Below the pieces are notes generated by a model. That model was not told the origin of the DNA, did not search any database, and was given only the letters and a program-made list of their open reading frames with translations. A stretch of 64,000 nt of DNA, from assembly GCF_001304615.2 (NCBI RefSeq), contig NZ_CP032683.1, positions 124,001 through 188,000 of the forward strand. Direction: 5' to 3'. Made by a program: the position numbers and the translations under genes. The stretch comes from Methanosarcina flavescens. GTDB taxonomy: Archaea; Halobacteriota; Methanosarcinia; Methanosarcinales; Methanosarcinaceae. The number at the start of each line of letters is the position of its first letter. Within the stretch, counting starts at the first letter, position 1. Below, piece by piece: positions 31,351-51,422 of the stretch.

Positions 31351-31382
31351 TTTACTTGAGAATTAATACCGGAAGATTACGA

Positions 31383-34935: not shown

Positions 34936-36234
34936 TTATAGTGACATATCGATTATTTTTTGTTTTTTCTCCACTTTCTCAAAGAAGATATAATAAAGAA
35001 CAGTAGCCACTATATATAGGATGCATGTCAGGAGGAAGGGAAGGGTATAGAAACCATGAGCCATCATCAGGCCACCTGCATAGGTACTTAGTCCTACAAA
35101 GGTGTAGCAGCTCATCCAGATCAGGCTGTTCACAGTTGCCCTTTGATCTTCACTGACTATCTCCATATTGAAACTGCTCAATACTGGATTTGACATATTC
35201 ATTATAGCTGACCTCATAACAAATCCGAAAGCAGCTATTGCAAGTATGGATGTGGATATAAAGAGCAGGAGGAAAGGTATTGAGGCAAGCTGAACCAGGG
35301 CTACAACTTTTACCTTCCCGAGACCTTCTGTAAGTATGGGAACAAACAGTAAGGTAAACATCATCACCAGTTGAGAAAGAGAAAAGATTATGCCTATTTG
35401 CTTCGAACTGGCTCCTAATACAATATCAAAATATACATTAAAATAGGGAAGGGCAAGCCCCCATCCCATGCCTATTAGCCCGTTTACAAGAATCAATTTT
35501 TGAATCGTCACTGACCTTAAAGTGGAAAAAAGGGTGGAAAATGCGGCTGATCTTTCCACCAGGTTGTTTCTTTTATTATTTATGAATATTAAAGGTAACA
35601 GGGAAATTAATACAGCAGCAAGTGACGCATATAATGAAAGCTGGTAAGCAACCGGTCCTATGGGGTTAATGTCGAGGAAACTGATGAATATTTGCGGCAA
35701 ATTGCCTCCTGCAAAGTTTCCTATCATGACCCCTACAGTGTATAGCAAGTAGTACATCGAAAACAGGTGCATTCTCTCATAGCCCGTAGAGTTCTCAACC
35801 ATGAATGTGGGTGCTGTAACTATCTTGAGCGATGAGGATACACCATAGACAACGCTGAAAAAAGCCAGCAGGAATTTAGAGGTGGTAGTGTACAGGATTG
35901 AAAAGGAAAACAGGAGAAGCAGGCAGGACAACAACAATGTATTCTTTCTGCCTGCCCTATCGCAGAACATGGCTGCAGGTATTGCGAATAGTCCGGTAGA
36001 TACGGAAACAAGTGAGAGCATAAATCCCAGAAAATCTTCCCGGTATCCAAGCCTCAAGATGTATAGATTGAAAATCACTTCGTAGATTCCCAGACTCAAA
36101 GAGATGAGAAATACATATACTAAAAACAAGCATGCATTTCTACTGAAGCCGTTTAGCTTTGCTCTGTACCCGGCAACCGCACTTATGGTTGTATTTAGAA
36201 CAAGCCTGCTGTTAAGTGATGGGTATTTTCTCAT
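34936..36234 (-). CDS. MFS family transporter, 432 aa
   Basis: A major facilitator superfamily protein of about twelve hydrophobic segments. The loop motif after segment 2 (AMFCDRAGRKNTLLLSCLLLL) matches the MFS motif GxxxDRxGRR, and residues around 210-230 form the usual charged central loop (INNKRNNLVERS). It is the last gene of a seven-gene unit (ATPases, substrate-binding protein, methyltransferase, two permeases, MFS), 35 bases after the permease gene. In known metallophore systems an MFS protein exports the chelator that the ABC transporter re-imports; the same role is conceivable here but is inference. Confidence 0.85.
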   Translation of the reverse strand: MRKYPSLNSRLVLNTTISAVAGYRAKLNGFSRNACLFLVYVFLISLSLGIYEVIFNLYILRLGYREDFLGFMLSLVSVSTGLFAIPAAMFCDRAGRKNTLLLSCLLLLFSFSILYTTTSKFLLAFFSVVYGVSSSLKIVTAPTFMVENSTGYERMHLFSMYYLLYTVGVMIGNFAGGNLPQIFISFLDINPIGPVAYQLSLYASLAAVLISLLPLIFINNKRNNLVERSAAFSTLFSTLRSVTIQKLILVNGLIGMGWGLALPYFNVYFDIVLGASSKQIGIIFSLSQLVMMFTLLFVPILTEGLGKVKVVALVQLASIPFLLLFISTSILAIAAFGFVMRSAIMNMSNPVLSSFNMEIVSEDQRATVNSLIWMSCYTFVGLSTYAGGLMMAHGFYTLPFLLTCILYIVATVLYYIFFEKVEKKQKIIDMSL

Positions 36235-36269
36235 AGTAATTACTCTGAAGAAATATAGAACATAGGGTC

Positions 36270-37103
36270 TTAGTCGATGTCCTTCTTTTCTCTTGGGTCA
36301 AGCAGATCCCTTAATTCGTCTCCCAGGTAATTAAATGCAAGAACCGTAAGCATGATGGCAATCCCCGGGAAAATCATGATGTATGGGGCAGACCGAATGT
36401 ATGTTTTTCCTTCACTTAGCATGGAACCCCATTCCGGGGTAGGCGGCTGCACACCAAAACCCAGGAAGCTGAGCCCTGCTGCAGACAGTATCACATATCC
36501 CATTCCTATAGTTGCCATTACTATGAGGGGAGATATGACATTTGGAATTACATGGCACAGGATCACATGCATATCTCCTGCCCCAAGCCCTTTAGCAGCC
36601 TTGATGTAATCCTGTTCTTTAACTGTCATGACAGAACCCCTGGCAAGGCGGGCATAGCCAGCCCAATCCACTGTTATTAGGGCTATGACCAGATTCATGA
36701 ATCCTGCACCGAAAAGCCCGGCTATACCAAGTGCCAGCAGCAGGCTAGGAAAAGCTAGGAAAGCGTCAACTACCCGCATAACTATCTCATCCGTCCACCC
36801 CCCATAATATCCAGACAGAGTACCAATGGCAAGACCTAAAACAAAGGAGGAACTCACTACCAGAAGTCCTACTAATAGCGATACTCTTGCGCCAAAAATT
36901 ATGCGGCTCAGTATGCAACGGCCAAGATGATCGGTTCCAAACGGGTACTCTCTACACGGCTCTTTAAGCCGGAGTTCAAGATTTACTTTTTCAGGATCGT
37001 GGGGAGCTATATATCCTGCAAAAAGTGCTGCAAGTATGAAAAAAATGAGGGTTCCTGCACTGAGGAACAGTCCCAGATTGTTGTTTTTAAGCCTTGCTTT
37101 CAT
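36270..37103 (-). CDS. Nickel/oligopeptide ABC transporter permease (DppC/NikC type), 277 aa
   Basis: This second permease subunit has six membrane segments. The N terminus carries the DppC-type domain (APHDPEKVNLELRLKEPCREYPFGTDHLGRCILSRIIFGAR), and the EAA loop is visible in YIKAAKGLGAGDMHVILCHVIPNVISPLIV. It overlaps the DppB-type gene by 17 bases, implying tight coupling. With the DppB subunit it forms the pore of transporter 1. Substrate specificity lies in the binding protein, not here. Confidence 0.92.
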   Translation of the reverse strand: MKARLKNNNLGLFLSAGTLIFFILAALFAGYIAPHDPEKVNLELRLKEPCREYPFGTDHLGRCILSRIIFGARVSLLVGLLVVSSSFVLGLAIGTLSGYYGGWTDEIVMRVVDAFLAFPSLLLALGIAGLFGAGFMNLVIALITVDWAGYARLARGSVMTVKEQDYIKAAKGLGAGDMHVILCHVIPNVISPLIVMATIGMGYVILSAAGLSFLGFGVQPPTPEWGSMLSEGKTYIRSAPYIMIFPGIAIMLTVLAFNYLGDELRDLLDPREKKDID

Positions 37104-38031
37104 ATCTGATCTTTGGGTTTAGGTAAGCATAGGATATATCCACTGCAAAATTAACCAGGACAAATATCACAGCAATGAAAAGCGCGCAGCCCTGTATCAT
37201 GGGGTAATCCTTGCTGAGTATGGATGAAACGATGAGGTTGCCTATCCCTGGCCAGGAAAAGATTGTCTCAACTATGACAGAGCCATTTAGGAGATACCCG
37301 AAATTCAGTCCTGCAACCGTTACAACAGGGATGAGTGAGTTCTTTAAAGCATGCTTAAGAATTATTGTATGTTCAGGAACTCCTTTGGCTCTGGCTGCCC
37401 GGATGTAATCTTGCTGCATCACGTCCAGCATACTTGCTCTCATCAATCTCATGGTTACAGCTGCATAACTCGTTCCAAGGGTGATGGCAGGCAAAAAAAT
37501 GTAAGCCAGGCTTCCATCTCCATATCCTGATGAAGGCAAAATCTCCAGGGTAAGCGCGAAGACTATGATCAGGATATAAGCTTGCCAGAAACTGGGCATT
37601 GAGACTCCTGTAAGGGCAAAGAACCTGCAGGCAGCATCTACAACTGTTCCTTTTCTCAGGGCTGAGAGAATGCCTAAGGGGATTGCAATGATAAGGGAGA
37701 CCAGCATACTGGTTACAGCAAGTCTCAGGGTGACTTTAAAGCATCTGAGAATTGCCTCCGAGACATTTTCACCTGTCATGTACGATTCTCCAAGGTCTCC
37801 ACGGAGGACTTTATCCATCCAGTGAATGTACTGGATATGTACAGGGTTATCAAGCCCCGTTTTAGCCCTGAATTCTTCTACGGCTCTCTGATCGACACCT
37901 CCCATGGGATTCATAAGTGCATTTTCTGCCGTATCTCCAGGTGAGATATAGGTTATAGAAAAACTAATCACAGAGACCAAGAAAAGGACAGGGAGAAGAA
38001 GTAAAAACCTTCGAGTTATGAACTCTATCAC
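37087..38031 (-). CDS. Nickel/oligopeptide ABC transporter permease (DppB/NikB type), 314 aa
   Basis: The first permease subunit starts with MIEFITRRFLLLLPVLFLVSVISF and the diagnostic SPGDTAENALMNPMGG. It has six membrane segments and an EAA loop DYIRAARAKGVPEHTIILKHALKNSLIPV that contacts the ATPases. It lies 45 bases after the methyltransferase stop and overlaps the DppC-type gene. Length and order are normal for the family. Confidence 0.93.
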   Translation of the reverse strand: MIEFITRRFLLLLPVLFLVSVISFSITYISPGDTAENALMNPMGGVDQRAVEEFRAKTGLDNPVHIQYIHWMDKVLRGDLGESYMTGENVSEAILRCFKVTLRLAVTSMLVSLIIAIPLGILSALRKGTVVDAACRFFALTGVSMPSFWQAYILIIVFALTLEILPSSGYGDGSLAYIFLPAITLGTSYAAVTMRLMRASMLDVMQQDYIRAARAKGVPEHTIILKHALKNSLIPVVTVAGLNFGYLLNGSVIVETIFSWPGIGNLIVSSILSKDYPMIQGCALFIAVIFVLVNFAVDISYAYLNPKIRYESKA

Positions 38032-38076
38032 AGGTCATTTCTCCTTTATCATGTCCAAAATTTGTTTCCAGGCTGC

Positions 38077-38793
38077 TTATTTTTCTGCTTTGATGAAGTA
38101 AATCGGATCGGAGGAATCGTGTTTATCAAACAAACTGTCTTTCTCCTTTTCAAATTTACAAAAGTCCTCCATCCGTGTTATGCTGACAGTTCCAAATCCG
38201 GAATCCTTAAAGATTTTAGATAAATGCTCAGGTTTTAAACTGAATAAAGGAAGATTTTTTTTAATGGGCTCATACTGCTTTCTGTAAATCTTCATGTAAT
38301 TTTCTTCCTTCTTTCTTCCGGACAGGCTTTGTTGGTTCCAATCTCCATCTATTGCAATTATTTTTCCGCCATCTTTCAGGACTCTTCTCCATTCCATCAG
38401 TGCTTTTCTGGGATCTGGAAGAGTCCAGAGCAGGTATTTATTAACAACTACGTCGAAATATACGTCAGGTAACTGGAGATTTTCCGCATCTCCCTGGAGG
38501 AAGTTTATCTTAAGTGATCTTTTTGATGCATTTCTTTTCGCTTTCTCCAGCATGTTATTTGATAGATCAACGGCTGTTACTTCATTTCCCATTTCAGCGA
38601 ATAATAGTGCCAGAAAACCAGGGCCGGTTCCTATGTCAAGTACTTTCAAGCCTTTCTTTCCCTCTATAGCTTTTAAAAGCATAGCTTTCCAGGCATTGCG
38701 TCCTTCTTCAGAATTTTCGATGGCTCCGTTGTTGTAACTCTCACTGCGGTAATCCCAGTAGCTCTGGATAATTCTTTTAGTGTCCATATTCAT
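38077..38793 (-). CDS. Class I SAM-dependent methyltransferase, 238 aa
   Basis: A Rossmann-fold methyltransferase (type 11-like). Visible are the N-terminal IQSYWDYRSESYNNG, SAM motif I KVLDIGTGPGFLALLFAEMG, motif II VTAVDLSNNMLEKAK, DAENLQLPD and VLKDGGKIIAIDGDWN. Its ATG overlaps the stop of the substrate-binding protein gene by four bases, so it is translated as part of the transporter unit, placed between binding protein and permeases, which is unusual for pure import systems. Close paralogues lie at 42926 (intact) and 25300 (decayed, next to nikR). The substrate is unknown; a small metabolite related to the transported compound is plausible. Confidence 0.88.
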   Translation of the reverse strand: MNMDTKRIIQSYWDYRSESYNNGAIENSEEGRNAWKAMLLKAIEGKKGLKVLDIGTGPGFLALLFAEMGNEVTAVDLSNNMLEKAKRNASKRSLKINFLQGDAENLQLPDVYFDVVVNKYLLWTLPDPRKALMEWRRVLKDGGKIIAIDGDWNQQSLSGRKKEENYMKIYRKQYEPIKKNLPLFSLKPEHLSKIFKDSGFGTVSITRMEDFCKFEKEKDSLFDKHDSSDPIYFIKAEK

Positions 38794-40391
38794 TCCTCCA
38801 GGTAAATGTCTTTGGTCAGGAATGACACTTCATTTGGAAATTGTTTAAATCCGCCAACTTTTGCATTTGCTCCGACTATAGAATTCTGGTAGAACACGAA
38901 AAGCTCAGGACAGTCTTCCATTACCTGCATTTGCACACTGTCATAGTATTCTTTTCTCTGTGCCGGATCCATTGTCTGCCTTCCCACTTCAATCCATTCA
39001 TCTACCTGAGGGTTTGAGTAACCAGTCTTCTGTGCCTCGCTCCCAGTAGACTCGAAATGCTTCGAAAGGATGTAGTCAGGATCTCCAGTAGGAGCTACTC
39101 CCCAGGCATAGAGAGAAAGGTCATAGTTTCCGTTAGCCATGTCGGTTTCAATTGCACCACTTTGCAGGATACTGACACTGGTCTTTAGCCCAATTGATTC
39201 GAACTGAGATTCGATTACCTCTGCTGCAGGCTTAAGCTGTGGGCGGGTAGTATAAGTCTTTATATTTAACTCAAAGGGTTCTCCATTGTATTCCAGCCAG
39301 CCGTCTGCATCAATATCACTAAAACCTGCTTCTGTCAATAATTTTTTAGCTTTCTGCTCATCGCGGGAAACAGCATCTATCTTATCATTAATCGACCATT
39401 CCATTACAGATGGGAATATACTCTTTGCAGGGGTTCCTCCTACACCTTCAAGTGCAGAATCCACAATTTGCTGGCGATCAAGGGCACAATTCAGAGCCTG
39501 TCTTACTTTTACATCATCAAATGGTGCTTTTTTCGTGTTGATATACAGGAAATATGTTCTTAGCGTTTCTTTGCCGTATACAGTAAAATCAACATTATTG
39601 CTTAGCCTCTCCACTTCGGATTGGGGAATACCGCCAGCGATGTCAACCTCATTATTTTCAAGCTTGAAGATTCTGGACATTTCATCAGGTACGAGATATA
39701 TGATTGCCCCATGGAGCCTGGGAATACCGTTCCAGTAATCTTCGTTCCTTTCCACAACAAGGCTTACATCCCTGGTGAAGCTTTTAAATTTAAAAGGACC
39801 TGTCCCAACTGGAGTGGTACTGAGATCTTTCGCACCAGGGCTGACTATTGATGTAACAGGGTCTGTGAGGCTTGCTATGGTAGAAGCGTATGAATATTTT
39901 GTTTTTATTGTGACGACATTCTCAGAATCTCTGGTTATGGACTCAATAAAGTCATATTCCCCTTTTCTTGAATTATTAGAGTCCAGCACCCTGTTAAGAG
40001 AATATATTACCGCATCTGCATCCACTGGGGTGCCGTCATGGAACTTTACTCCCTCTCTAATATAGATCTTCCATTCTGTATCTGAGATTTGTTCATATTT
40101 TTCAGCAAGTTCGGGTTGAAAGTCCATATTTTCATCATAACTGAAGAGGGTTTCATATATCCCGGCTTCTCGCATAGACCAGCCAGTCCATTTTATCGCC
40201 GGGTCAAGAGTATCAGTAGGGATAGAAGCATCGGCATATCTCAATATTCCTCCTTGGCTCGATATATTGGTCTGGTTTGCAGAAGCCGTTTTTTCTTCAC
40301 TATTCTGGTCGATACACAATGATCCCAGGACTATAGCCATGACTATCAGCATGACAAGAACTGTAATTCTATATTTTTTACTCATGTACAT
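38790..40391 (-). CDS. ABC transporter substrate-binding protein (SBP_bac_5, NikA/DppA-like), 533 aa
   Basis: An extracytoplasmic solute-binding protein. The N terminus has a signal or anchor segment (ITVLVMLIVMAIVLGSLC) with a Cys that may be lipid-modified, although the lipobox is imperfect. The body shows family 5 motifs: ETLFSYDENMDFQPELAEKYE, WKIYIREGVKFHDGTPVDADAV, VGTGPFKFKSF and DDVKVRQALNCALDR. The late segment TYTTRPQLKPAAEVIESQFE resembles NikA/CntA-type nickel or metallophore-binding members more than classical dipeptide ones. This is my reading and not decisive. It follows the ATPase genes by 61 bases. Confidence 0.9.
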   Translation of the reverse strand: MYMSKKYRITVLVMLIVMAIVLGSLCIDQNSEEKTASANQTNISSQGGILRYADASIPTDTLDPAIKWTGWSMREAGIYETLFSYDENMDFQPELAEKYEQISDTEWKIYIREGVKFHDGTPVDADAVIYSLNRVLDSNNSRKGEYDFIESITRDSENVVTIKTKYSYASTIASLTDPVTSIVSPGAKDLSTTPVGTGPFKFKSFTRDVSLVVERNEDYWNGIPRLHGAIIYLVPDEMSRIFKLENNEVDIAGGIPQSEVERLSNNVDFTVYGKETLRTYFLYINTKKAPFDDVKVRQALNCALDRQQIVDSALEGVGGTPAKSIFPSVMEWSINDKIDAVSRDEQKAKKLLTEAGFSDIDADGWLEYNGEPFELNIKTYTTRPQLKPAAEVIESQFESIGLKTSVSILQSGAIETDMANGNYDLSLYAWGVAPTGDPDYILSKHFESTGSEAQKTGYSNPQVDEWIEVGRQTMDPAQRKEYYDSVQMQVMEDCPELFVFYQNSIVGANAKVGGFKQFPNEVSFLTKDIYLEE

Positions 40392-40452
40392 AGAACCCTA
40401 TCCATTTACATTCATTCCTTAATTGTCATTATTCTAAGATCCAGCAACGGGG

Positions 40453-41436
40453 TCAGGCAACAAGCTGATCACTGGTAGCATCCGTTTTACCTGCGTACCC
40501 GTCCTGATGAGACTGCTGAGTACTTTTTTCAAGTACATGATGACATGCAACAAGTTGATGTTCCAGCTCTTTCAATTCTGGAGTTTTTGTGAGGCAGATT
40601 TCCGACCTGAAGAGACATTCCTGATAATACGGACAGGTAGTTCTCAAAGTCTTTTTGATTTCACTGACATTAACCTCCGGATCAGCTTCTTCTGCCAGCA
40701 ACAATTGTGTGTAGGGGTGTAGAGGGGAGTGAAAGATGTCTTCTATTTTTCCAGTTTCCACAATCTTTCCCCTATACATCACAGCTACTCTGTCGCACAT
40801 ATGTTTGATCAGCTCAAGATCGTGCGAGATGAACAGCATAGTAAGGGCGTACTTTTCTTTCAGGTGTCTTAGCAGGTTCAATATCTGTGCCTGTACCGAG
40901 ATATCCAGGGAGGCGGTTGGCTCATCGGCAACAATAAAAACAGGTTTAAGAGCAAGCACTCTTGCGATAACTGCTCTCTGGTTCTGGCCTCCACTGAGCT
41001 GGTAGGGAAAGCGGTTGATATGTTCGGGACTCAGCCCAACCTGCCTGATAAGTTCAAAGACCCTGATTTTAACCGCCTCCCGATTGTTTCCCTTAAGTTT
41101 TAGCGGTTCAGCTATGCTCTGCCCTATTGTCATTTTGGGATCAAGGGAAGAGTCAGGATCCTGAAATATCATCTGCATGCAGGGACGGATGTTATTCAGA
41201 GTCTTATTATCAAGCGCGGTCAGTTCTATTCCATTAAAAATAACTTTTCCTGCTGTTGGTTCCATAAGCCTGAGGATACACTGCCCCAAAGTAGATTTTC
41301 CACTCCCGCTTTCCCCTACAATGCCCAGAGTCTCTCCTTTTTCTATGTGAAAGGATACGTCATCCACTGCTTTGATTCTGGTTCTGGGAAGGAAGCCGGA
41401 AGTAAATGTTTTTTTAAGGCCCTTTACCTCAAGCAT
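40453..41436 (-). CDS. ABC transporter ATPase (DppF/NikE type), 327 aa
   Basis: The second ATPase of transporter 1: Walker A GIVGESGSGKSTLGQC, Q-loop QMIFQDPDSSLDPKM, signature LSGGQNQRAVIARVLAL (a Q replaces the more common Q/E-Q pattern), Walker B PVFIVADEPTASLDIS and the oligopeptide C-terminal domain with HPYTQLLL and the Cys-rich CPYYQECLFRSEIC. The Cys-rich motif is a known Fe-S-binding feature in some Opp ATPases. It overlaps the DppD-type gene by eight bases. Confidence 0.93.
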   Translation of the reverse strand: MLEVKGLKKTFTSGFLPRTRIKAVDDVSFHIEKGETLGIVGESGSGKSTLGQCILRLMEPTAGKVIFNGIELTALDNKTLNNIRPCMQMIFQDPDSSLDPKMTIGQSIAEPLKLKGNNREAVKIRVFELIRQVGLSPEHINRFPYQLSGGQNQRAVIARVLALKPVFIVADEPTASLDISVQAQILNLLRHLKEKYALTMLFISHDLELIKHMCDRVAVMYRGKIVETGKIEDIFHSPLHPYTQLLLAEEADPEVNVSEIKKTLRTTCPYYQECLFRSEICLTKTPELKELEHQLVACHHVLEKSTQQSHQDGYAGKTDATSDQLVA

Positions 41437-42361
41437 AGAGAAAACACCTCATAGCCCTACCGTTTTTTTCGAGCATGAGAGGGTGTTCGGTTTTACACCT
41501 ATCACTGCAATAACTGCAACGAGGATGGAATCTGCATCCCTTGGGAGGATCGATTAAAGAAGGGCTGCTGCCTTTTATTGGTTTAAGCCCCCTTGCAGGG
41601 AGAGAGTTAAAAAAACCTCTTGTATAGGGATGCAGTGGGTTTTTAAATATCGATGCTGCAGGTGCAATCTCCACTAATTCTCCTGCATACATCACAGCAA
41701 CCCTATTGCATACTTTCTCTGCAACCTCCAGGTCATGGGTGATGATTAACATCGTCTTTTTTTCAGAGATATCTCTTAAAAGTTTAACTATTTTCCTTTT
41801 CACAGTTATATCCAGACCCTTTGTTGGTTCATCGGCAATGATAAATCGCGGTTCGCTGGCAATACCCATGGCTATTACTGCCCGCTCTTTCATCCCTCCG
41901 CTATACTGATGAGGGTAGTCTTTTGCTCTCTTCCGGGGCTCTTTTATCTTTACGAGCCCCAGAAGTTTCTCTGCCATCTCGATAGCCAGGCTGCCTTTTA
42001 CTTTTTTATGTAACATTATAGGCTCAGCTATCTGAGAGCCGACTGTCAGTCCTGGATTAAGAGAGCTTCCAGGGTTCTGGAGGATCACGCCAATTTCTTT
42101 GCCCCTGAGTTTTCTCATGGCGTCTTTTTCAATCGAATACAGGTTCTTTCCACAGTAGAGAATCTCCCCTTTGAGAATAACATCTTCCTGCAGTAACCTC
42201 ATGACAGAAAGTCCAAGTACACTTTTGCCACAGCCTGATTCCCCGATAAGTCCTAAAACTTCATTCACTTTTATGGAAAGATCTACCCCATTTACTGCCC
42301 TGACCAGACCGTCGTCAGTGGGAAAATCCACGTATAAACTGGAAATTGTGAGTAAATTCAA
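41429..42361 (-). CDS. ABC transporter ATPase (DppD/NikD type), 310 aa
   Basis: The first gene of the seven-gene unit, starting with TTG at 42361 behind GAGTGAT. Walker A is GLIGESGCGKSVLG, the signature is YSGGMKERAVIAMGIA, Walker B is FIIADEPTKGLDIT and the C-terminal region has HPYTRGFFNSLP and the CRFHPRCSYCSDRC cysteine cluster typical of Opp/Dpp ATPases. The divergent spacer to the methyltransferase at 42926 must hold both promoters. Confidence 0.93.
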   Translation of the reverse strand: MNLLTISSLYVDFPTDDGLVRAVNGVDLSIKVNEVLGLIGESGCGKSVLGLSVMRLLQEDVILKGEILYCGKNLYSIEKDAMRKLRGKEIGVILQNPGSSLNPGLTVGSQIAEPIMLHKKVKGSLAIEMAEKLLGLVKIKEPRKRAKDYPHQYSGGMKERAVIAMGIASEPRFIIADEPTKGLDITVKRKIVKLLRDISEKKTMLIITHDLEVAEKVCNRVAVMYAGELVEIAPAASIFKNPLHPYTRGFFNSLPARGLKPIKGSSPSLIDPPKGCRFHPRCSYCSDRCKTEHPLMLEKNGRAMRCFLYA

Positions 42362-43672: not shown

Positions 43673-43736
43673 TCATTATAACTTTCTTACAAGGGAATTA
43701 GTTTTTAAATTGTTAAAAAATAAACTGTCAGAAATC

Positions 43737-44624
43737 TTAAGAAATACCGTCCAATTCTTTTCTTCGAACAGCCGGGTTCCACCAGACCACAGCTGACCGG
43801 TATTTTCTAACACAGGGTCCTTCCCCGGAATCTCTATATAACTCATCTCGAATTATTTCTTCAACCTCAGGTGTTACCTCTGTATAGATTGAGTAAAAAA
43901 CTCTGTACATTCTAAGCATATTCTCGAGTTTTCTCGCACTTGTATAATTTATAAGCCTGACATGGGGAACTCTTCCATGCATGTAGAGGAGGTTATAGAT
44001 CAAAGGGTACTCCGGGTACTGGGGATAAGGCACATTGCCCATAATCTTCTTCCAGAGTTCTGTTTCAAAAGTCTGCCCTGTGCTGACCCCACCAACCACA
44101 CAGCAGTGACCACGTGTTACCTCTTCCATCCGATTGATTTGAGTCATAATATCGCGGAACATCCAGATGACGGTTGATGAGATAGTAAGATCATATCGAC
44201 CTCGGAGATCTTCAATATTCACATCCTGCCAGATTTTAGGGATAATATCATAGTTTTTCACTCCGGCTTCCGCAGCATTTTGAGAAATCATACGCCTCAT
44301 ACCTTCTGCAGGCTCAACAGCAGTTATATGATCAACCTTGCGTGCAAAAGGTATTACAAATGTTCCCGGACCTGCACCAACCTCGAGTACCCTTGAATCA
44401 GGAGAAACGACCTCATGGAGGGCAAGAGTAGAGCATACTAACTCTCCGAACTCGTAATTATTTGTCCGCCTTGATTCTGAGTAATCCTCTGCTCTTTCAC
44501 TCCAGTCATCTATTTCGTAATCTCTTAGCATTATTCTCGATCGGGCATCGTAGCTGTCTTCCCAGAGCCTTACCCAGTCTACAGGAGCTGTCAGAGAGTC
44601 CAAAGTCACGCTACCTTCCACCAC
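43737..44624 (-). CDS. SAM-dependent methyltransferase, second type, 295 aa
   Basis: A methyltransferase of a different subfamily from the 38077 and 42926 pair. Visible are DWSERAEDYSESRRTNNYEFG, SAM motif I SRVLEVGAGPGTFVIPFARK, HITAVEPAEGMRRM and VVGGVSTGQTFE, with a C terminus ending SAVVWWNPA. It overlaps the upstream paralogue gene by 19 bases, and the two share RAEDYS, VEPAEgM and the terminal WWxPA/WWKVA. The two tandem genes lie convergent to 42926 and divergent to transporter 2. Substrate unknown. Confidence 0.82.
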   Translation of the reverse strand: MVEGSVTLDSLTAPVDWVRLWEDSYDARSRIMLRDYEIDDWSERAEDYSESRRTNNYEFGELVCSTLALHEVVSPDSRVLEVGAGPGTFVIPFARKVDHITAVEPAEGMRRMISQNAAEAGVKNYDIIPKIWQDVNIEDLRGRYDLTISSTVIWMFRDIMTQINRMEEVTRGHCCVVGGVSTGQTFETELWKKIMGNVPYPQYPEYPLIYNLLYMHGRVPHVRLINYTSARKLENMLRMYRVFYSIYTEVTPEVEEIIRDELYRDSGEGPCVRKYRSAVVWWNPAVRRKELDGIS

Positions 44625-45412
44625 AGCACACCCATCCTGCCGCTAACTTTATACATACTTTCTATAGCGTGATCTTGCACATGCTCCCGAATAATCTCAT
44701 AATCCTTAGAATCCAGTGGTCGGTATTTCTCGACAAGTTTCTCAACCGAAGATACTGCCGAGGCAATCGATCGCGTGAGAGTGTAATCGATAACATCAAC
44801 ATTAGGATACACTCCGGAATTATTGAGAAGGTTGAATATTGTGATGAACTGATCAAACTCACCCTCATAGATCCCAAGACTTTCCATTAATTTGCTGGTC
44901 TCTGAAGGAGCTTCGAATCCATGAGCAAGACAGCAGTACCCCCTGGATACTGCTTCCATGCGTCGAACCTGCGAGAGAATATCCGGAAATTGCCAGAGTG
45001 CGTGGCAGCATATGACTAAATCGTAGCTTTTTGCATGCGCTGCCTCATCCACTTCCTGCCAGGTCTGTGGTATTATATCAATATTAGTAATTCCTCTTCT
45101 CTGTGCATATGACAGCAGCGCTTTTGCCATCTTCTCTGCAGGCTCAACAGCGGTTGCCCTGCATACCTGCTCTGCAAAAGGGATTGTTATTGCTCCAGGT
45201 CCAGACGCAATATCTAAAATATGCCACTCCTTCTGCAGTAATCCTTCCCGTTCAAACAGGCTGAGGATATTCCTACCGTGATTGCAATCACTTGCCATTA
45301 CCATATCGGAATAGTCCTCAGCCCGTCTGTTCCAGTAATTTGTGGTAGAAAGCCTGCTCATCTCATCGATGCCTGCAGCCCATGCTGTCTCCCAATCTAT
45401 TTCTGTAATCAT
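44606..45412 (-). CDS. SAM-dependent methyltransferase, second type, 268 aa
   Basis: The upstream member of the tandem pair. Motifs are NYWNRRAEDYSDMV, WHILDIASGPGAITIPFAEQ, RATAVEPAEKMAKALL and YDLVICCHALWQFPDI; it ends GVLWWKVA. I place the start at the ATG at 45412 because GAGGAAATAAT precedes it; a longer frame to 45442 lacks such a site. Identity with the downstream neighbour is visible only in the SAM core and ends, so they diverged long ago or have distinct substrates. It may share the divergent promoter region with transporter 2. Confidence 0.82.
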   Translation of the reverse strand: MITEIDWETAWAAGIDEMSRLSTTNYWNRRAEDYSDMVMASDCNHGRNILSLFEREGLLQKEWHILDIASGPGAITIPFAEQVCRATAVEPAEKMAKALLSYAQRRGITNIDIIPQTWQEVDEAAHAKSYDLVICCHALWQFPDILSQVRRMEAVSRGYCCLAHGFEAPSETSKLMESLGIYEGEFDQFITIFNLLNNSGVYPNVDVIDYTLTRSIASAVSSVEKLVEKYRPLDSKDYEIIREHVQDHAIESMYKVSGRMGVLWWKVA

Positions 45413-45689
45413 ATTATTTCCTCGAAAATAATAAGTAATCAATGATTAGTATTAACATATAATAATTTATCTACTTAATGTAGTGAAAAATAAGAAAAAT
45501 AGTTTAACTAATAATAAAAATATTCTATAATTCTCATATAAAACGATAGCAGATGCAGGAAGCTGATCATAAATTTTGATGTTCAGTAGTTTTATATGAA
45601 TTTTCTAACTCAAGCATAGTTGTTCAGACTACTTATAGAATTAACGATCAGTAAATATATCAATAAATTTAAATTGCTTTAATGGGATA

Positions 45690-45850: not shown

Positions 45851-45967
45851 TTAGTGTTAAGTCATAATAATTTATATTTTTATTGTAATAAAATATAAGA
45901 AAAAAAATATATGTAATATTAACATACACCCTTAATTGTCATAAAAAAGATAAGTAGATGTCGAAAA

Positions 45968-46903
45968 ATGACCACGATTCTAGACGTCCAGCAGTTGCAT
46001 GTGCATTTTCCCGTTTCAAGTACAATCATTCGGGCCGTAAATGGAGTTGATATTACCATTAAACAGTCCGAGACACTCGCAGTCATTGGAGAAAGCGGAA
46101 GTGGAAAATCGATATTGGGACTGGCAATACTCGGGCTGCTACCTGCAAACTGCACGGCAAATGGAATTATACAATATCGCGGGGATAATCTCCTAACCCT
46201 TCCTGAAAGTGAACTTGAAACAATCCGCGGCAGAGAGATTGCATGGGTTCCGCAGAACCCCGCAGGAGCAATGAATCCTTTAATGACTGTGGGGAACCAG
46301 ATAGGAGAACCAATCTCTCTCCATATAGAAAAAGACAAAAACAAAGTTAGAAAAAAGGTTCTTGAACTCTTACAATTCATTAAAATAACTCCTCCTGAGG
46401 AAAGAATAGATTCCTATCCTTATTCATTCAGTGGCGGAATGCTTCAACGCTCACTTGTAGCTATGGGAATTGCAGGACGTCCAGAGATACTCATCGCAGA
46501 TGAGCCTACCAAAGGTATAGATGTAATGAATAAGCAGGCTATTCTCTCCTTTTTTCAGACTTTACATGAGGAAGGAATTACTCTTGTTATCATCACGCAT
46601 GATCTCTTATTTGCCCGAAATATCGCGGACAGGATTGCAGTAATGTACTGCGGGAGAATCATAGAAATAAGGAGAAAACAGGAATTTTTTAACGAGCCTC
46701 TGCATCCTTACTCCAGAGGGCTTCTCCGCTCTCTTCCTGAGAACGGTCTTTACCCTATACCATCCGGAACAGAAGAAATTGGCGATGATGGAGGTTGTAA
46801 ATTCCGGTCTCGATGTACATGTGCAACAGAAAGGTGCAGGGAAGAGCCACAGCTAATTACTCTTTTGGAAGGATCGGCTGTCAGGTGCTGGTTGTATGAT
46901 TGA
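45968..46903 (+). CDS. ABC transporter ATPase (DppD/NikD type), transporter 2, 311 aa
   Basis: The first gene of transporter 2. Walker A is AVIGESGSGKSILG, Q-loop VPQNPAGAMNPLM, signature FSGGMLQRSLVAMGIA, Walker B ILIADEPTKGIDVM and C-terminal CKFRSRCTCATERC with the Opp-type Cys cluster. It overlaps the next ATPase gene by eight bases, repeating the architecture of transporter 1, but the two sets are clearly diverged. The upstream spacer contains a decayed fragment of a related gene. Confidence 0.93.
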   Translation: MTTILDVQQLHVHFPVSSTIIRAVNGVDITIKQSETLAVIGESGSGKSILGLAILGLLPANCTANGIIQYRGDNLLTLPESELETIRGREIAWVPQNPAGAMNPLMTVGNQIGEPISLHIEKDKNKVRKKVLELLQFIKITPPEERIDSYPYSFSGGMLQRSLVAMGIAGRPEILIADEPTKGIDVMNKQAILSFFQTLHEEGITLVIITHDLLFARNIADRIAVMYCGRIIEIRRKQEFFNEPLHPYSRGLLRSLPENGLYPIPSGTEEIGDDGGCKFRSRCTCATERCREEPQLITLLEGSAVRCWLYD

Positions 46904-47807
46904 AGGGAGAGGTCTGACCAAGATATTCACTCCAGTCTCTGGAAAAAACCGGATTGTTGCTGTTGACAATGTGAATATAAGGATAAAAGCCGGAGAAACA
47001 CTTACTCTTGTAGGGGAAAGCGGATGTGGAAAGTCCACCCTCTCAAGACTGCTCCTTCTGCTTATTCCTCCGACGCGGGGAGAAATATTTTTTGAAGGTC
47101 AGAGGCTTACGGGACTGAAAGAAAAAGATCTCCGCCCTATTCGAAAAAAAATTCAGATTGTGCCGCAGCAACCGGAAAGCTCCCTGAACCCCAGGTGGAA
47201 AATAGCTGATTCCATCTGCGAACCCTTTCGCATCCATCCGGAAACGTTAAGTGGCAGACAGATAGAAGAAGAGCTGAAGAGGCTTCTTAAACTTGTCGGG
47301 CTTGAACCTGAGCAGGCAACCCGATATCCTCACCAGCTCAGCGGCGGAGAACTACAGCGCGCTGTTATTGCTCGGGCTATCGCACTGAAACCTGCACTTC
47401 TGATTTGTGACGAACCGACTTCAATGCTCGATGTGTCCACGCAAGCATCTATTGTACATCTCCTAAAAACACTCCAGCAAAACCTTGGATGTGCCCTTCT
47501 CTTTATTACTCACGACCAGGGGCTTGCACGTGTTATTGGAGATCGGACAGCTGTAATGTTTGCAGGGCAGATAGTAGAAGAGGGGTACGGTGTCTTTGAC
47601 AGACCGTACCACCCATTTACCCGCAAAATCACATCACCCTACTATTCAGGCTCCTTATCAGCACTTGAACCTCAAGGAACAAAGGTTCCAGGTTCATGTG
47701 TATATTATCAATTCTGCCCGGAAAGGACAGAAAAATGCCTGCATCGCCCTGAAATACGGGAATACAAAGACAGAAGGGTGTGCTGCCATAACGTTTCACC
47801 ATCTTAA
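46896..47807 (+). CDS. ABC transporter ATPase (DppF/NikE type), transporter 2, 303 aa
   Basis: Walker A is TLVGESGCGKSTLS, Q-loop IVPQQPESSLNPRW, signature LSGGELQRAVIARAIAL, Walker B LLICDEPTSMLDVS, H-loop LLFITHDQGLARVI. The C-terminal part has the Cys motif CVYYQFCPERTEKC. It pairs with the preceding ATPase as a heterodimer. The binding protein gene follows after 188 bases. Confidence 0.93.
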   Translation: MIEGRGLTKIFTPVSGKNRIVAVDNVNIRIKAGETLTLVGESGCGKSTLSRLLLLLIPPTRGEIFFEGQRLTGLKEKDLRPIRKKIQIVPQQPESSLNPRWKIADSICEPFRIHPETLSGRQIEEELKRLLKLVGLEPEQATRYPHQLSGGELQRAVIARAIALKPALLICDEPTSMLDVSTQASIVHLLKTLQQNLGCALLFITHDQGLARVIGDRTAVMFAGQIVEEGYGVFDRPYHPFTRKITSPYYSGSLSALEPQGTKVPGSCVYYQFCPERTEKCLHRPEIREYKDRRVCCHNVSPS

Positions 47808-47995
47808 TGATCGTTCATTTCCAAAATATTATCTGTGAGTTTTGGCAGGCGATCGCCTGTTTAGAAGCTTACTCCAACAAATTACCCATCTCAACAAATT
47901 ACCCAAAATTTTAGTGATTACTTAATACTTCCTTTATGCGTAAACTTTGCTGAATTGATGTTTATACATAATAGTATCAGACGTGATTGATAAGT

Positions 47996-49546
47996 ATGAA
48001 AAGAAAGGAAGGAATTCTCTTTATTTTGCTAGCTCTCGTTGTACTGGGGGCAGGCTGTACAGATAAAGAACAAAATGAAGAAACTCAAATACTATCTATC
48101 TCGGGTCAGTGGAGTCTTAATAACATTGATCCTCACCAGTCAGGCTATATACCCCAGAGGCTTGGATACGTAGAAACCCTCGTAGGAGTTGACTATGAGG
48201 GAAAAATAATCCCGTGCCTTGCAAGCTCATGGGAAGTTTCAAATGATGGAAAAAAATGGACATTCACACTGAGAGATGGTGTTCGATTCCATGACGGAAC
48301 GCCTCTAACAGCTGAGATAATGAAAAATTCTCTAGAAAGATCCTTTGTTAAGTCAGCAGCAATATTCGGAAAAATTCCAGTAACATCAATTGAGACTCCG
48401 GATAACCAGACATTAGTAATAAACCTTAATTCAACCTTCCCCGCACTTCCTGCTTACCTCTCTAGAGGGGAGAGTGCTGCTCTTGCTCCCGGATCTTATG
48501 ATGGTAATAACAATTTGATAAAACCCATAGGGACCGGACCTTTTATCTTTGAATCCTGGAAACCGGAAGAAGAGGTTATTCTGATCAAAAATCCTGATTA
48601 CTGGGGGCAGGTTGCTTCAGTTGATAAAGTAATATACCGGATAACTCCTGAGGAACTTACAAGAAAGATGCTTCTTGACAGCAAAGATATTCAGATAGCA
48701 ATGATTCTTTCACCTGAGATTGCTGAAAAATATACGGAAGATTCCAATTACAATGTTCTGCAGCAATCAGTTGCTCGTGTGAGAATGATAGCGTTTAACG
48801 CAGAAAAAGAACCTTTTAATGATAAAAGAGTGCGGCAGGCTGTTAACTATGCTATTGACAGGGAAGCAATAGTGAATTATGTCCTGCATGGATACGGAAG
48901 CAATGCAGCAGGGCTTTTCCCACCGGAGTTTTACTGGGCAAATAAGGACATTGCTCCGTATACTTATGACATAGAGAAAGCAAAGACCCTGCTTAATGAA
49001 GCAGGATGGACTGACTCAAATGGAGATGGTATACTTGATAAAAATGGCAAGCCTCTGACGCTCACATTTATCACCTATCCTGAGAGAGCAGAATTGCCGC
49101 CGATAGCTGAGGTAATTCAACAACAGCTTGAGAAAGTAGGTATAAAAACAGAACTTATGGTTCTCAATTACGATGCTGCAAACTCTCTTAGAAACAAGGG
49201 TGAGTTTGACATGTTCCTTATAGGAAGAGGACTGCTTTTCGTACCTGACCCTGACGAGATAATGATGACAGACTACCACTCAAGTGGCACATTAATTGAC
49301 GGCTCCGGAGCATATCGATGGCACAACGACACTGTAGATAAGCTGATAGAACAGGCAAGAGCTACGTCTGACGAAGCTGTCAGAAAAGAATTTTATGATG
49401 AGATCCAGGCAATTATCGTCGAAGAAGCGCCGGTTGCATATCTTAATTATTATGTTAATATCGACGTCACAACCTCGAACATAAAGGGATATCGTCTCCA
49501 TCCTACAGAGTATTCTCTTGATCTTCAGAATGTTTCTATTGCCTGA
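47996..49546 (+). CDS. ABC transporter substrate-binding lipoprotein (SBP_bac_5), transporter 2, 516 aa
   Basis: The N terminus (KRKEGILFILLALVVLGAGC) is a lipoprotein signal with a Cys after LGAG. Family 5 motifs follow: VSNDGKKWTFTLRDGVRFHDGTPLTAEI, IGTGPFIFESWKPEEEVILIKNPDYWG, FNDKRVRQAVNYAIDREAIV and TYPERAELPPIAEVIQQQLE, the last again NikA-like. I start at 47996 (MKRKEG); an ATG three codons upstream is less likely. As the substrate specificity of transporter 2 is unknown, it could import a metal chelate or peptide. Confidence 0.9.
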   Translation: MKRKEGILFILLALVVLGAGCTDKEQNEETQILSISGQWSLNNIDPHQSGYIPQRLGYVETLVGVDYEGKIIPCLASSWEVSNDGKKWTFTLRDGVRFHDGTPLTAEIMKNSLERSFVKSAAIFGKIPVTSIETPDNQTLVINLNSTFPALPAYLSRGESAALAPGSYDGNNNLIKPIGTGPFIFESWKPEEEVILIKNPDYWGQVASVDKVIYRITPEELTRKMLLDSKDIQIAMILSPEIAEKYTEDSNYNVLQQSVARVRMIAFNAEKEPFNDKRVRQAVNYAIDREAIVNYVLHGYGSNAAGLFPPEFYWANKDIAPYTYDIEKAKTLLNEAGWTDSNGDGILDKNGKPLTLTFITYPERAELPPIAEVIQQQLEKVGIKTELMVLNYDAANSLRNKGEFDMFLIGRGLLFVPDPDEIMMTDYHSSGTLIDGSGAYRWHNDTVDKLIEQARATSDEAVRKEFYDEIQAIIVEEAPVAYLNYYVNIDVTTSNIKGYRLHPTEYSLDLQNVSIA

Positions 49547-49595
49547 TATGAGTATTTAACCCAATATACTTTCATTTAAAAGAGTTTGGGTAAGA

Positions 49596-50540
49596 ATGAT
49601 GCGCGCGATTATACTAAACCGTCTGTTTCAAATGATACAGGTTATGATTGGAATTTCTCTTATTACTTTTACAGTAATTTCCCTTTCGCCAGGAGATCCG
49701 GCTGAAATCACACTCAGAGCTACTCTTGGTACCGAGAGTCCACCTAAAGAGGCAGTAGCCAAACTTCATGAAGAGATGGGGCTTGACGATCCCTGGCATA
49801 TCCGCTATCTAAAATGGGCTTCAAGGATTGTACATGGAGACCTGGGATATTCCTATCAGACGAAAAGAAGCACTCTCGATGAAATTGCACATGCTCTGCC
49901 TGTAACCTTCTGTCTTGCCTCATTTTCAATGCTGTTCTCGGCTGTCATAGCTATTCCGCTTGGAATTGCAGCGGCATTGAAGCAAAACGGGCTTGTGGAC
50001 CACCTGTGCAGGCTTGGATCTGTAGTCTGTCTCTCTAGCCCTGAGTATTTTGTTGCTATGATCTTTATGCTCATTGGTGGTGTATATCTGGGGATTCTTC
50101 CGGTTGCAGGAGCAGGAGGAATAGAGCATTTCATCCTCCCCTCACTGGCTCTCTCAGTCAGCCTTATTTCAGTAACAATGCGTATCATGCGGACAAGCAT
50201 GGTTGAAACGCTTGAGCAGGATTATATAAGAACAGCCCGTGCAAAAGGACTTAGCCGTAAAATAGTCATTCAGCGGCATGCTTTAAAGAATGCACTCCTC
50301 CCTGTCCTTATATATATGGGCACCCAGTTCGGATGGATCTTCGGAGGGGCGGTTATGATTGAAAGCATTTTTGCACTCCCAGGACTTGGGAGGCTCCTTG
50401 TGAACTCGGTTTCCTCAATGGACATTATGGTAGTTCAGGGTTGTATGCTTACCTTTGCGGTGATCATAGTGCTTATTAATCTTTTCGTCGACCTTGTTCA
50501 TCTTTATCTTGATCCATCAATCAGGTCTCAGGAAGAATGA
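49596..50540 (+). CDS. ABC transporter permease (DppB/NikB type), transporter 2, 314 aa
   Basis: Standard DppB-type permease: MMRAIILNRLFQMIQVMIGISLITF, the SPGDPAEITLRA motif, six membrane segments and the EAA loop DYIRTARAKGLSRKIVIQRHALKNALLPVL. It lies 49 bases after the binding protein and four bases before the DppC-type gene. No anomaly seen. Confidence 0.93.
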   Translation: MMRAIILNRLFQMIQVMIGISLITFTVISLSPGDPAEITLRATLGTESPPKEAVAKLHEEMGLDDPWHIRYLKWASRIVHGDLGYSYQTKRSTLDEIAHALPVTFCLASFSMLFSAVIAIPLGIAAALKQNGLVDHLCRLGSVVCLSSPEYFVAMIFMLIGGVYLGILPVAGAGGIEHFILPSLALSVSLISVTMRIMRTSMVETLEQDYIRTARAKGLSRKIVIQRHALKNALLPVLIYMGTQFGWIFGGAVMIESIFALPGLGRLLVNSVSSMDIMVVQGCMLTFAVIIVLINLFVDLVHLYLDPSIRSQEE

Positions 50541-50543
50541 TAT

Positions 50544-51422
50544 ATGGAACACTCATATTTTGATGAAAAGCTGGTATTTTCCGGAATGTACAGAGTATGG
50601 GGAGTTTTGCGGAGCAACATAATGCTTACAATTGGAATTTTATTATTTGTTCTCATTTCCATGATGGCCGTAATGGCTCCAGTGATCTCTCCACATGAGC
50701 CTGCAGAGATACACTTTGAAGAACGGTTATCTCCTCCGTCAGCGTCTTTTCCTCTCGGAACCGATCAGTTTGGAAGGTGTATTTTCAGCCGTATAGTGTA
50801 CGGTGCACAGACTTCGCTCTTCATTGCAATCATTTCGACTCTGATCACAGTGTCTGCAGGAATTCTCATAGGGATGTATGCAGGTTATTTCAGCAGATGC
50901 GATGCCTTCCTGATGCGATTGACGGACATCATGCTTGCTTTCCCAAGTATAGTTCTTGCGATTGCGATTGTGGGAGTTATAGGCCCAACTCCTGCAGGAA
51001 TTATTCTTTCTCTTTCCATTTCGGGTTGGGCAAAGTACGCACGAATGATCCGAGGATCTACTCTTTCGCTAAAAAATGGTGGATTCGTTGAAGCAGCCAG
51101 GGCACTTGGCGCTTCTGAGAAATACATTCTTTTCCACCATATTCTTCCCAACAGCTATGGACCTATCATAGAGGTCGCAACACTTGGACTGGGATCCAAG
51201 ATTATTGCAATCTCCGGGCTTGGATTTCTAGGGCTTGGAATCCAGCCTCCCACCCCGGAACTGGGGACAATATTGAAGGATGGACTCGTATATCTACAGA
51301 CTGCTCCGATGATGTCTTTATCTGCAGGTGGCATGATCATGCTGTTTGTCCTTGCTGTAAATCTTATCGGTTCCGAACTGAGATCCATTACTGATCCCAG
51401 ATCTAACACAATAGAACTTTAA
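50544..51422 (+). CDS. ABC transporter permease (DppC/NikC type), transporter 2, 292 aa
   Basis: Standard DppC-type permease with the domain SPHEPAEIHFEERLSPPSASFPLGTDQFGRCIFSRIVYGAQ, six membrane segments and the EAA loop GFVEAARALGASEKYILFHHILPNSYGPIIE. It is the last gene of transporter 2 and converges with the rpoP end of the superoperon. The spacer 51423-51749 holds a 12-base direct repeat (TCTAATACTTCA) but no supported gene. Confidence 0.93.
   Translation: MEHSYFDEKLVFSGMYRVWGVLRSNIMLTIGILLFVLISMMAVMAPVISPHEPAEIHFEERLSPPSASFPLGTDQFGRCIFSRIVYGAQTSLFIAIISTLITVSAGILIGMYAGYFSRCDAFLMRLTDIMLAFPSIVLAIAIVGVIGPTPAGIILSLSISGWAKYARMIRGSTLSLKNGGFVEAARALGASEKYILFHHILPNSYGPIIEVATLGLGSKIIAISGLGFLGLGIQPPTPELGTILKDGLVYLQTAPMMSLSAGGMIMLFVLAVNLIGSELRSITDPRSNTIEL

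Follow-up and report, generated by a model that had tools for sequence, protein, structure and literature searches.

Paired methyltransferase and SBP5-type importer genes in Methanosarcina flavescens and their possible part in nickel or cobalt handling

Among described systems, NikABCDE of Escherichia coli (TIGR02294) has the same five-subunit SBP5 ABC architecture as the two importers reported here, which lie in a window of 64,000 nucleotides of the Methanosarcina flavescens genome (contig NZ_CP032683.1, positions 124,001 to 188,000; coordinates below are window positions unless a contig is named); the nik and dpp operons of E. coli contain no methyltransferase gene, however, whereas the window cassettes do. 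To our knowledge, it is not settled which natural nickelophore presents nickel to NikA-type proteins. The staphylopine- and pseudopaline-type (Cnt) systems resemble our locus in combining an importer of the SBP5 type with an MFS protein and enzymes that use SAM, and the likeness extends to nicotianamine-synthase-like genes, present elsewhere in the window genome and beside related methyltransferases in relatives; the block differs from them in having neither a nicotianamine synthase (NAS) nor an opine dehydrogenase gene and in that its SAM enzymes are methyltransferases. Nik/CbiMNQO ECF transporters and the regulator NikR offer another comparison, since relatives of one of our two methyltransferase subfamilies (MT1) adjoin NikM/CbiQO and NAS genes in several Methanosarcina and ANME relatives and the window itself encodes NikR and NikM, but the block uses SBP5 ABC importers. 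A literature search found no report of a methyltransferase partner of these ECF transporters. NikABCDE-type systems under a cobalamin riboswitch have been described in Clostridium tetani and Desulfitobacterium (PMC2667541), tying SBP5 importers to cobalt regulation as in two MT1 loci described below (L165 and L151); unlike for those loci, the passages of that report on these systems mention no methyltransferase partner. Among open-licence papers, searches for nickelophore with methyltransferase, for cobaltophore, and for Methanosarcina nicotianamine synthase gave no hits, and we found no earlier description of nickel or cobalt handling with a methylated small molecule.

Two importer cassettes, each with its own methyltransferase pair

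The region from 34936 to 51422 holds four class I methyltransferase genes, all intact, together with one MFS gene and the complete gene sets of two SBP5-type ABC importers; open reading frame (ORF) and profile searches recovered all the genes listed in the original prediction, intact and in the order given there. Unit 1, on the minus strand, reads D, F, SBP1, MT1a, B, C, MFS, and the predicted overlaps or close spacing of its genes were borne out by gaps of -17 to +61 bp. The plus strand carries unit 2 (45968 to 51422) in the order D, F, SBP2, B, C, and MT1b (plus), MT2a, and MT2b (both minus) lie between the importers. In both cassettes, one binding protein, two permeases, and two ATPases make up a complete A-B-C-D-E gene set.

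34936..36234, minus: MFS transporter of cassette 1, possible exporter (PF07690)
36270..37103, minus: permease C, importer 1 (ORF; 17 bp overlap with permease B; conserved in the cassette)
37087..38031, minus: permease B, importer 1 (ORF; 74-76% identical in L037, L038, and L068)
38077..38793, minus: MT1a, within the importer 1 operon (PF08241, E=3.5e-27; 4 bp overlap with SBP1)
38790..40391, minus: SBP1, substrate-binding protein, SBP5 family (PF00496, E=7e-88)
40453..41436, minus: ATPase F, importer 1 (PF00005 and PF08352)
41429..42361, minus: ATPase D, importer 1 (PF00005 and PF08352)
42914..43672, plus: MT1b, divergent from cassette 1 across a 552 bp gap (56% identical to MT1a)
43737..44624, minus: MT2a, cassette 2 (PF13649, E=2e-7)
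44606..45442, minus: MT2b, cassette 2 (PF13649, E=5e-10; 19 bp overlap with MT2a)
45968..46903, plus: ATPase D, importer 2 (NCBIfam similarity to oligopeptide/nickel ATPases, below cut-offs)
46896..47807, plus: ATPase F, importer 2 (ORF; 8 bp overlap with D)
47987..49546, plus: SBP2, substrate-binding protein, SBP5 family (PF00496, E=5e-105)
49596..50540, plus: permease B, importer 2 (ORF; 81-83% identical in L263, L286, and L287)
50544..51422, plus: permease C, importer 2 (ORF; 81-84% identical in L263, L286, and L287)

These genes form two independent cassettes, each an importer with its own methyltransferase pair: cassette 1 from 34936 to 43672 and cassette 2 from 43737 to 51422. They had been taken for one block, a view we correct because each stands alone in other genomes, which also rules out a single coregulated block. 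Cassette 1 occurs by itself, 94-97% identical and at the same chromosomal place, in a close relative (G062, locus L253), where it is followed by ORFs sized like the window's Rrp42, Rrp41, Rrp4, and SBDS neighbors; cassette 2 occurs by itself, 74-84% identical, in three genomes (G084, G043, and G007; L263, L286, and L287), and its presence at the window site differs between close relatives. A transposase-like ORF lies at 32672-33709. No convincing palindromic operator is shared by the two divergent gaps of the block.

The four methyltransferases belong, as predicted, to two subfamilies, MT1a being 56% identical to MT1b and MT2a 32% identical to MT2b. All four score above Pfam cut-offs and carry SAM-binding motif I (DIGTGPG, DVGTGPG, EVGAGPG, and DIASGPG) with no internal stop, in keeping with assignment to the class I SAM-dependent methyltransferases. 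MT1a and MT1b fall into one well-supported clade, in a family of proteins of about 240 residues, and MT1a reaches the cut-off of none of the named NCBIfam families shown; the MT1b ortholog at the same place in L253 is 97% identical. MT2a (76-81% identical) and MT2b (76-80%) recur in L263, L286, and L287, where MT2a adjoins MT2b and importer 2. An AlphaFold model of MT1a (pLDDT 87) matches class I methyltransferases, but because methyltransferases acting on RiPPs, on phosphoethanolamine (N-), on sugars (O-), and on thiols (S-) all match it equally, we rejected the structure as uninformative about the substrate of MT1.

Both binding proteins were ruled out as NikA by score and by pocket residues. 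Against nickel_nikA (TIGR02294, cut-off 393 bits), SBP1 scored 193 and SBP2 269.8, and SBP1 reached 332.6 bits against the 600 required by Opp5A_nikA; of the NikA pocket residues R97, R137, W100, W398, Y402, and H416, SBP1 keeps the R97 position only and SBP2 none, so that both differ from NikA at R137, W398, and H416. They are likewise far below the cut-off of 800 of the CntA-type model NF047575 (142 and 207 bits), and the importer ATPases score below the CntD and CntF cut-offs. Both carry a (G/P)DPD motif, as does E. coli DppA, and the solved structures close to them include AppA, DppA, and NikA-type proteins, with the heme-binding HbpA among the PDB hits; SBP5 folds are too similar to one another to name a ligand. 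The MFS gene is kept in every relative that shows its end of cassette 1 (L253, L037, L038, L141, and L068, where the copy is cut by the contig end), and it matched no specific exporter model in the NCBIfam search.

Conserved pairing and metal-related neighbors of MT1

The pairing of methyltransferases with SBP5 importers is not due to chance. Of the 139 Methyltransf_11 genes in six complete genomes, 22 have an SBP5 gene within 6 kb, where 3.1 would be expected (rotation null of 2000 trials: mean 3.06, maximum 14), and a scan with a profile for MT1 alone placed 74 of 94 family members beside SBP5-importer genes. Distances among MT1 proteins and among their binding proteins are correlated (Mantel r 0.77; permutation maximum 0.17), partly through species history. 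The co-occurrence check proposed with the original prediction found the pairing kept across archaea and bacteria, and the opposite outcome, in which nearly all relatives of the transporters lack the methyltransferases, was not seen. Most MT1 loci hold an importer and the methyltransferase but neither an exporter nor a backbone enzyme. Only 12 of 125 loci include an exporter, which means that secretion is not a general feature. FecCD/Peripla_BP_2 importers are also accompanied by MT1 in some loci. No partner enzyme recurs across the bacterial MT1 loci; LysR, MatE, a CooC-like ATPase, DUF4198, AstE/AspA, and FecCD each recur in a few.

The neighbors of MT1 relatives point to nickel or cobalt handling via a methylated small molecule. 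In the Enterobacterales Proteus, Citrobacter, Yersinia, and Gilliamella, an MT1 gene opens the operon immediately before nikABCDE; the adjoining binding proteins of Proteus, Yersinia, and Gilliamella score 609-633 bits against nickel_nikA (cut-off 393). NikA residues Y22, M27, R97, W100, R137, W398, Y402, and H416 are all conserved in the binding proteins of Proteus, Citrobacter, and Yersinia. The Gilliamella operon also encodes LarB (an equivalog match) and a Ni_insertion (LarC) protein. In Clostridia, MT1 lies in cobalamin-riboswitch operons with cbiK/cbiMQO. In L165 the riboswitch is followed by CbiK-MT1-MT1-B-C-SBP-D-F-MatE-CbiM-CbiQ-CbiO, and in L151 by a BtuF-type binding protein, a FecCD-type permease and ATPase, MT1-SBP-B-C-D-F, and CbiM/Q/O. 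Upstream of MT1, neither the block nor the enterobacterial loci have a NikR box of the E. coli consensus; the matches there are weak, like those elsewhere in the window, and we rejected a canonical NikR operator. No relative of MT2, which is fixed to importer 2, was found sharing an operon with a named metal gene.

A second context of MT1 lies beside NAS (PF03059) and NikM/CbiQO genes in Methanosarcina, in another genus of the family, and in an ANME-2 archaeon. On the tree, the MT1s of this context branch from within those of importer operons, with three changes of context, two of them forced by starred branches; judged from this tree, the NAS context was gained two or three times. MT1 occurs in 11 of 13 family genomes with NAS versus 14 of the 48 others (61 genomes; p=0.0008 without phylogenetic correction), so that 14 genomes carry MT1 without NAS. 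The original prediction had seen no nicotianamine-synthase-like gene, which is true of the block; the genome nevertheless has one intact NAS (C1:283814-284626), about 96 kb past the window, around which no metal or transport gene was recognized. A search for opine dehydrogenase (PF10100), in which no positive control rang, found none in the 61 family genomes, including that of the window. Related genes also lie in the window outside the block:

24839..25300, plus: nikR, nickel-responsive regulator (PF08753 NikR_C, E=4e-22; PF01402)
25297..25835, minus: decayed third MT1 copy beside nikR (tblastn fragments with a frameshift and stops)
29189..29854, plus: NikM/CbiM, nickel/cobalt ECF transporter subunit (PF01891, E=4e-54)

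The decayed fragments are up to 84% identical to MT1 of Methanosarcina NAS loci. One such locus (L122) has the order nikR-NASa-NASb-MT1, whereas the window lacks both of these NAS genes, its MT1 remnant lying next to nikR. Copies of NikM/CbiM 84-86% identical to that of the window lie beside MT1-NAS-CbiQO loci (L043 and L123). The predicted link to nickel or cobalt, first drawn from the style of annotation, is backed by these relatives, through nikABCDE encoding binding proteins with pockets of the NikA type, larB/larC, cobalamin riboswitches, cbiK/cbiMQO, and nikR; the window binding proteins themselves are not NikA.

Possible roles of the cassettes

We tentatively prefer, at somewhat less than an even chance, the view that each cassette combines an importer of a nickel or cobalt chelate with a methyltransferase pair acting on the carried ligand, probably in the direction of synthesis rather than breakdown. 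The methyltransferases would methylate a ligand derived from amino acids and perhaps resembling nicotianamine; the cassette 1 MFS protein would export the methylated ligand, which would bind nickel or cobalt, and the ABC importer would return the complex to the cell. Counting against this reading, besides the scores and pockets of SBP1 and SBP2, are the 14 family genomes with MT1 but no NAS, the distance of this genome's NAS from the window, and the lack of a consensus NikR box before MT1. We infer that the window importers carry a metal chelate, that its ligand is the methyl acceptor, and that the direction is synthesis; a role for MT2 in metal-ligand methylation may be supposed by analogy. 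We offer the secreted-metallophore version as a hypothesis, because SBP1 and SBP2 differ from NikA, the opine dehydrogenase search (without a positive control) gave no match, and so few loci include an exporter. ECF transporters import bare ions, so the ligand of the NAS/ECF loci may act inside the cell.

The methyl group might instead serve release, an imported foreign or medium-derived chelate losing its nickel or cobalt when a donor atom of the ligand is methylated in the cell. Such a mechanism would need neither exporter nor ligand synthase. We consider it unlikely but a serious contender: it suits the majority of MT1 loci, which lack an exporter and a backbone enzyme, the absence of a noted export signal in MT1, the overlap of MT1a with an importer gene, and the presence of MT1 beside FecCD/Peripla_BP_2 importers. 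The loci with NAS and ECF genes, however, pair a synthase of the ligand with an importer of ions, no chelate importer being recognized nearby, and tailoring of a ligand fits this gene content better than release. The cassettes could also be importers of peptides or amino acids whose methyltransferases do a separate job that came under selection along with uptake, such as nutrient sensing or modification, as the missing NikA pocket, the DppA-like (G/P)DPD motif, and the closeness of AppA and DppA (besides NikA-type proteins) would allow; this is rather improbable, as it leaves MT1 beside nikABCDE, larB, NAS, CbiMQO, CbiK, and cobalamin riboswitches unexplained. Still less probable is the salvage or modification of tetrapyrroles (corrinoids, heme-like compounds, or breakdown products of F430), to which the riboswitches, CbiK, and BtuF/FecCD-type genes of some loci and the heme-binding HbpA within SBP5 would be suited, but nikABCDE with LarB/LarC and the NAS loci involve no tetrapyrrole. 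A chance neighborhood in an accretion hot spot, suggested by the transposase-like ORF and the variable presence of cassette 2, is very improbable and already contradicted by conservation: in other genomes, too, each cassette is found with its methyltransferases, and the genome-wide count exceeds its null.

Beyond this locus, we give not much less than an even chance to a widespread, so far undescribed route of nickel or cobalt acquisition, used by archaea and bacteria alike, in which a methylated small metal ligand is made or released by one methyltransferase working with a dedicated chelate importer. The positions of MT1 beside nikABCDE, larB, cobalamin-riboswitch operons, NAS, and nikR point to a ligand-modifying step. 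MT1 is a deletable gene encoding an assayable enzyme, and the Enterobacterales loci bring testing into easily grown organisms. If the proposal is true, some classical nikABCDE systems would use a methylated nickel ligand, and a nicotianamine-type ligand would be methylated in Methanosarcina and its relatives.

Two importer-methyltransferase cassettes

All 15 genes of the block, which lies in a closed genome of 3,283,688 bp (window at 124001-188000), are open and stand in the order originally predicted; within each unit, neighboring genes overlap or are separated by short gaps. What had been taken as a single block is in fact two cassettes, each found without the other in relatives:

34936-43672, cassette 1: MFS gene, permeases C and B, methyltransferase MT1a, binding protein SBP1 and ATPases F and D (minus strand), with divergent MT1b (plus strand)
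34936-36234, minus strand, within cassette 1: MFS_1 protein (Pfam)
43737-51422, cassette 2: methyltransferases MT2a and MT2b (minus strand) and importer 2, D-F-SBP2-B-C (plus strand)

In one relative (G062, locus L253), cassette 1 is conserved from the MFS gene to ATPase D, together with divergent MT1b (identity, 94-97%), and is followed by ORFs sized like exosome/SBDS neighbors, with importer 2 and MT2a/b absent from the region. Conversely, G084, G043, and G007 carry importer 2 alongside MT2b-MT2a but no importer 1 (L263, L286, and L287; identity, 74-84%). Each importer and its own methyltransferase pair therefore travel as a unit. Cassette 1 also occurs, including its MFS gene, in one genus of Methanosarcinaceae (L037 and L038) and in Methanocella (L141), as well as in another genus of Methanosarcinaceae (L068), where the contig stops within the MFS gene. 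A transposase-like ORF (32672-33709) borders cassette 1 on the left, and beyond cassette 2 (53166-54635) is an Rrp41-like exosome protein, 489 aa long, whose C-terminal tail is very long and rich in Glu.

Both binding proteins belong to SBP_bac_5 (here, SBP5), both unit 1 ATPases match ABC_tran and oligo_HPY, and all four methyltransferases carry generic methyltransferase domains (Pfam). Because every transporter subunit tested fell below the NCBIfam cut-offs of the named families listed, including nickel_nikA, CntA, DppA, and OppA, the names "nickel" and "oligopeptide" importer in the original prediction are not licensed by score. Rfam matches in the window include sRNA41 and the euryarchaeal eL15 leader; together with close matches to Methanosarcina loci, they assign the window to this genus.

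Methyltransferases and binding proteins co-occur beyond chance in six complete genomes of Methanosarcinaceae (139 Methyltransf_11 genes at E<=1e-10; 44 SBP5 genes): 22 methyltransferase genes had an SBP5 gene no more than 6 kb away, versus 3.06 on average and 14 at most when SBP positions were rotated (2,000 trials), and 20 of the 44 SBP5 genes had a methyltransferase neighbor within that distance. Within the window genome, methyltransferases lie inside or next to the operons of SBP1, SBP2, and two more SBP5 genes (2232188 and 2736827); the SBP5 genes at 1002675 and 2068468/2070627 have none there. A third methyltransferase type (304-319 aa) occurs within further SBP5 operons (L249, L250, L260, and L261); in two operons of the window genome, L249 (G000:C1:2725000-2744999) and L250 (G000:C1:2224000-2243999), this protein of ~300 aa is encoded between SBP and permease B, as it is at L260 and L261.

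Nickel and cobalt company of MT1 relatives

An MT1 profile built from 22 sequences and scanned against one genome per species identified 80 loci in methanogens, ANME archaea, Archaeoglobaceae, Clostridia, Paenibacillus, Enterobacterales, and others; the scan is unbiased toward transporters, since loci were picked by the methyltransferase alone. An SBP5 gene lay within 5 kb of 64 of the 94 MT1-type genes, 10 were next to a matching permease, 1 was in a locus with nicotianamine synthase (NAS) and ECF-type nickel/cobalt transporter genes, and 19 had none of these, some adjoining FecCD/Peripla_BP_2 importers (L150 and L163) and some on short contigs. DUF4198 and CooC-like ATPase genes recurrently adjoin MT1 in further archaea. 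In G084 (L254:3877-9799), two Peripla_BP_2 proteins (siderophore/cobalamin type), a 355-aa ORF, an ATPase, and three MT1-type methyltransferases stand in a row. The ArsM-like arsenite methyltransferase beside an arsenite permease-like gene at 13081-15093 falls outside the MT1 family.

Three independent lines, all from relatives, indicate nickel or cobalt as the metal. MT1 directly precedes an SBP-B-C-D-E set in Proteus terrae (L159), Citrobacter (L187), Yersinia massiliensis (L188), and Gilliamella (L194). The three of these binding proteins that were scored (Proteus, Yersinia, and Gilliamella) are nickel_nikA equivalogs (NCBIfam; 609-633 bits versus a cut-off of 393), and those of Proteus, Citrobacter, and Yersinia, aligned to Escherichia coli NikA, retain Y22, M27, R97, W100, R137, W398, Y402, and H416. 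Upstream in the Gilliamella operon are LarB (NF033503 equivalog), a Ni_insertion (LarC) protein, an MFS protein, and a Lar_N protein. In an Eubacteriales member (L165), a cobalamin riboswitch stands ahead of the codirectional array CbiK-MT1-MT1-B-C-SBP-D-F-MatE-CbiM-CbiQ-CbiO; in Desulfosporosinus (L151), one precedes a Peripla_BP_2 protein, a FecCD-type permease, an ATPase, MT1-SBP-B-C-D-F, and CbiM/Q/O. An earlier study used NikA pocket residues to tell NikABCDE from peptide importers and noted members with cobalamin riboswitches in Clostridium tetani and Desulfitobacterium (PMC2667541).

The pockets encoded in the window differ from that of NikA. SBP1 has an Arg at the R97 position (R142), invariant among its 11 aligned relatives, lacks R137, W398, and H416 in the alignment, and carries a GDPD motif and an invariant His (H445); SBP2 has no NikA pocket residues and carries a PDPD motif. 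In DppA and OppA, an Asp in the DPD-motif region can bind the ligand's alpha-amino group. An amino group on the SBP1/SBP2 ligand is only hinted at, because the assumed DppA position itself was out of register in our alignment.

Nicotianamine synthase loci and proposed ligand modification

The third line on the metal comes from archaea. In Methanosarcina spp., MT1 adjoins NAS genes (PF03059) and NikM/CbiQO, with MT1-NASb-NASa codirectional (e.g., L043, L044, L122, L123, and L125; nikR is additionally present at L122), and similar loci occur in another Methanosarcinaceae genus (L041, L116, and L118) and an ANME-2 archaeon (L144). The tandem divergent NAS-like pair by NikM/CbiQO in many Methanosarcina genomes (L043, L122-L128, and others) is distinct from the single conserved NAS. 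In a maximum-likelihood tree (78 MT1 sequences), three changes account for the NAS/ECF context, at least two of them forced by starred branches, and the MT1s in this context fall inside the importer-linked part; near relatives of NAS-linked MT1 are housed in SBP5 operons (L039, L040, and L257). The simplest reading of these sequences is that one chemistry would serve both kinds of locus.

The window genome has three CbiM genes, four CbiQ genes, and a single intact NAS (C1:283814-284626, ~96 kb past the window), around which no gene was recognized as metal related. In the window are the following:

24839: nikR
25297-25835: decayed MT1, adjoining nikR and most like NAS-linked MT1
29189: NikM

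L122 has two NAS genes between nikR and MT1, and the window lacks both there; the pair was probably lost in this strain. With the pair gone and the adjacent MT1 decayed, the NAS-MT1 locus was seemingly lost and the importer-linked MT1 genes were kept. Nearby, sRNA41 (RF02905; 24518-24632) is encoded immediately upstream of nikR but on the other strand, and a serine acetyltransferase-like protein (31356-32327) has an extra C-terminal domain that, by eye, resembles a DUF59/iron-sulfur assembly domain.

We propose that the importers would carry nickel or cobalt as a chelate and that the methyltransferases would modify the chelating ligand. Methylation might instead free the metal from an imported ligand, a less favored model that keeps its place because exporters were found in only 12 of 125 MT1 loci. 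Because of the NAS loci and the MFS gene fixed in cassette 1, we lean toward ligand synthesis over release. MT2 is linked to importer 2, and genes resembling MT2 lie within SBP5 operons of Methanocella (L141) and a Dehalococcoidia bacterium (L155); a metal link for MT2 is drawn by analogy only.

No description of a methyltransferase partner of SBP5 or NikABCDE importers was found in the open-licence literature searched. For Methanosarcina barkeri, large differences in SBP5 protein abundance between iron and sulfur sources have been reported, and these proteins were discussed under cell-cell recognition (PMC10846266); a role with metal ligands would offer an alternative reading.
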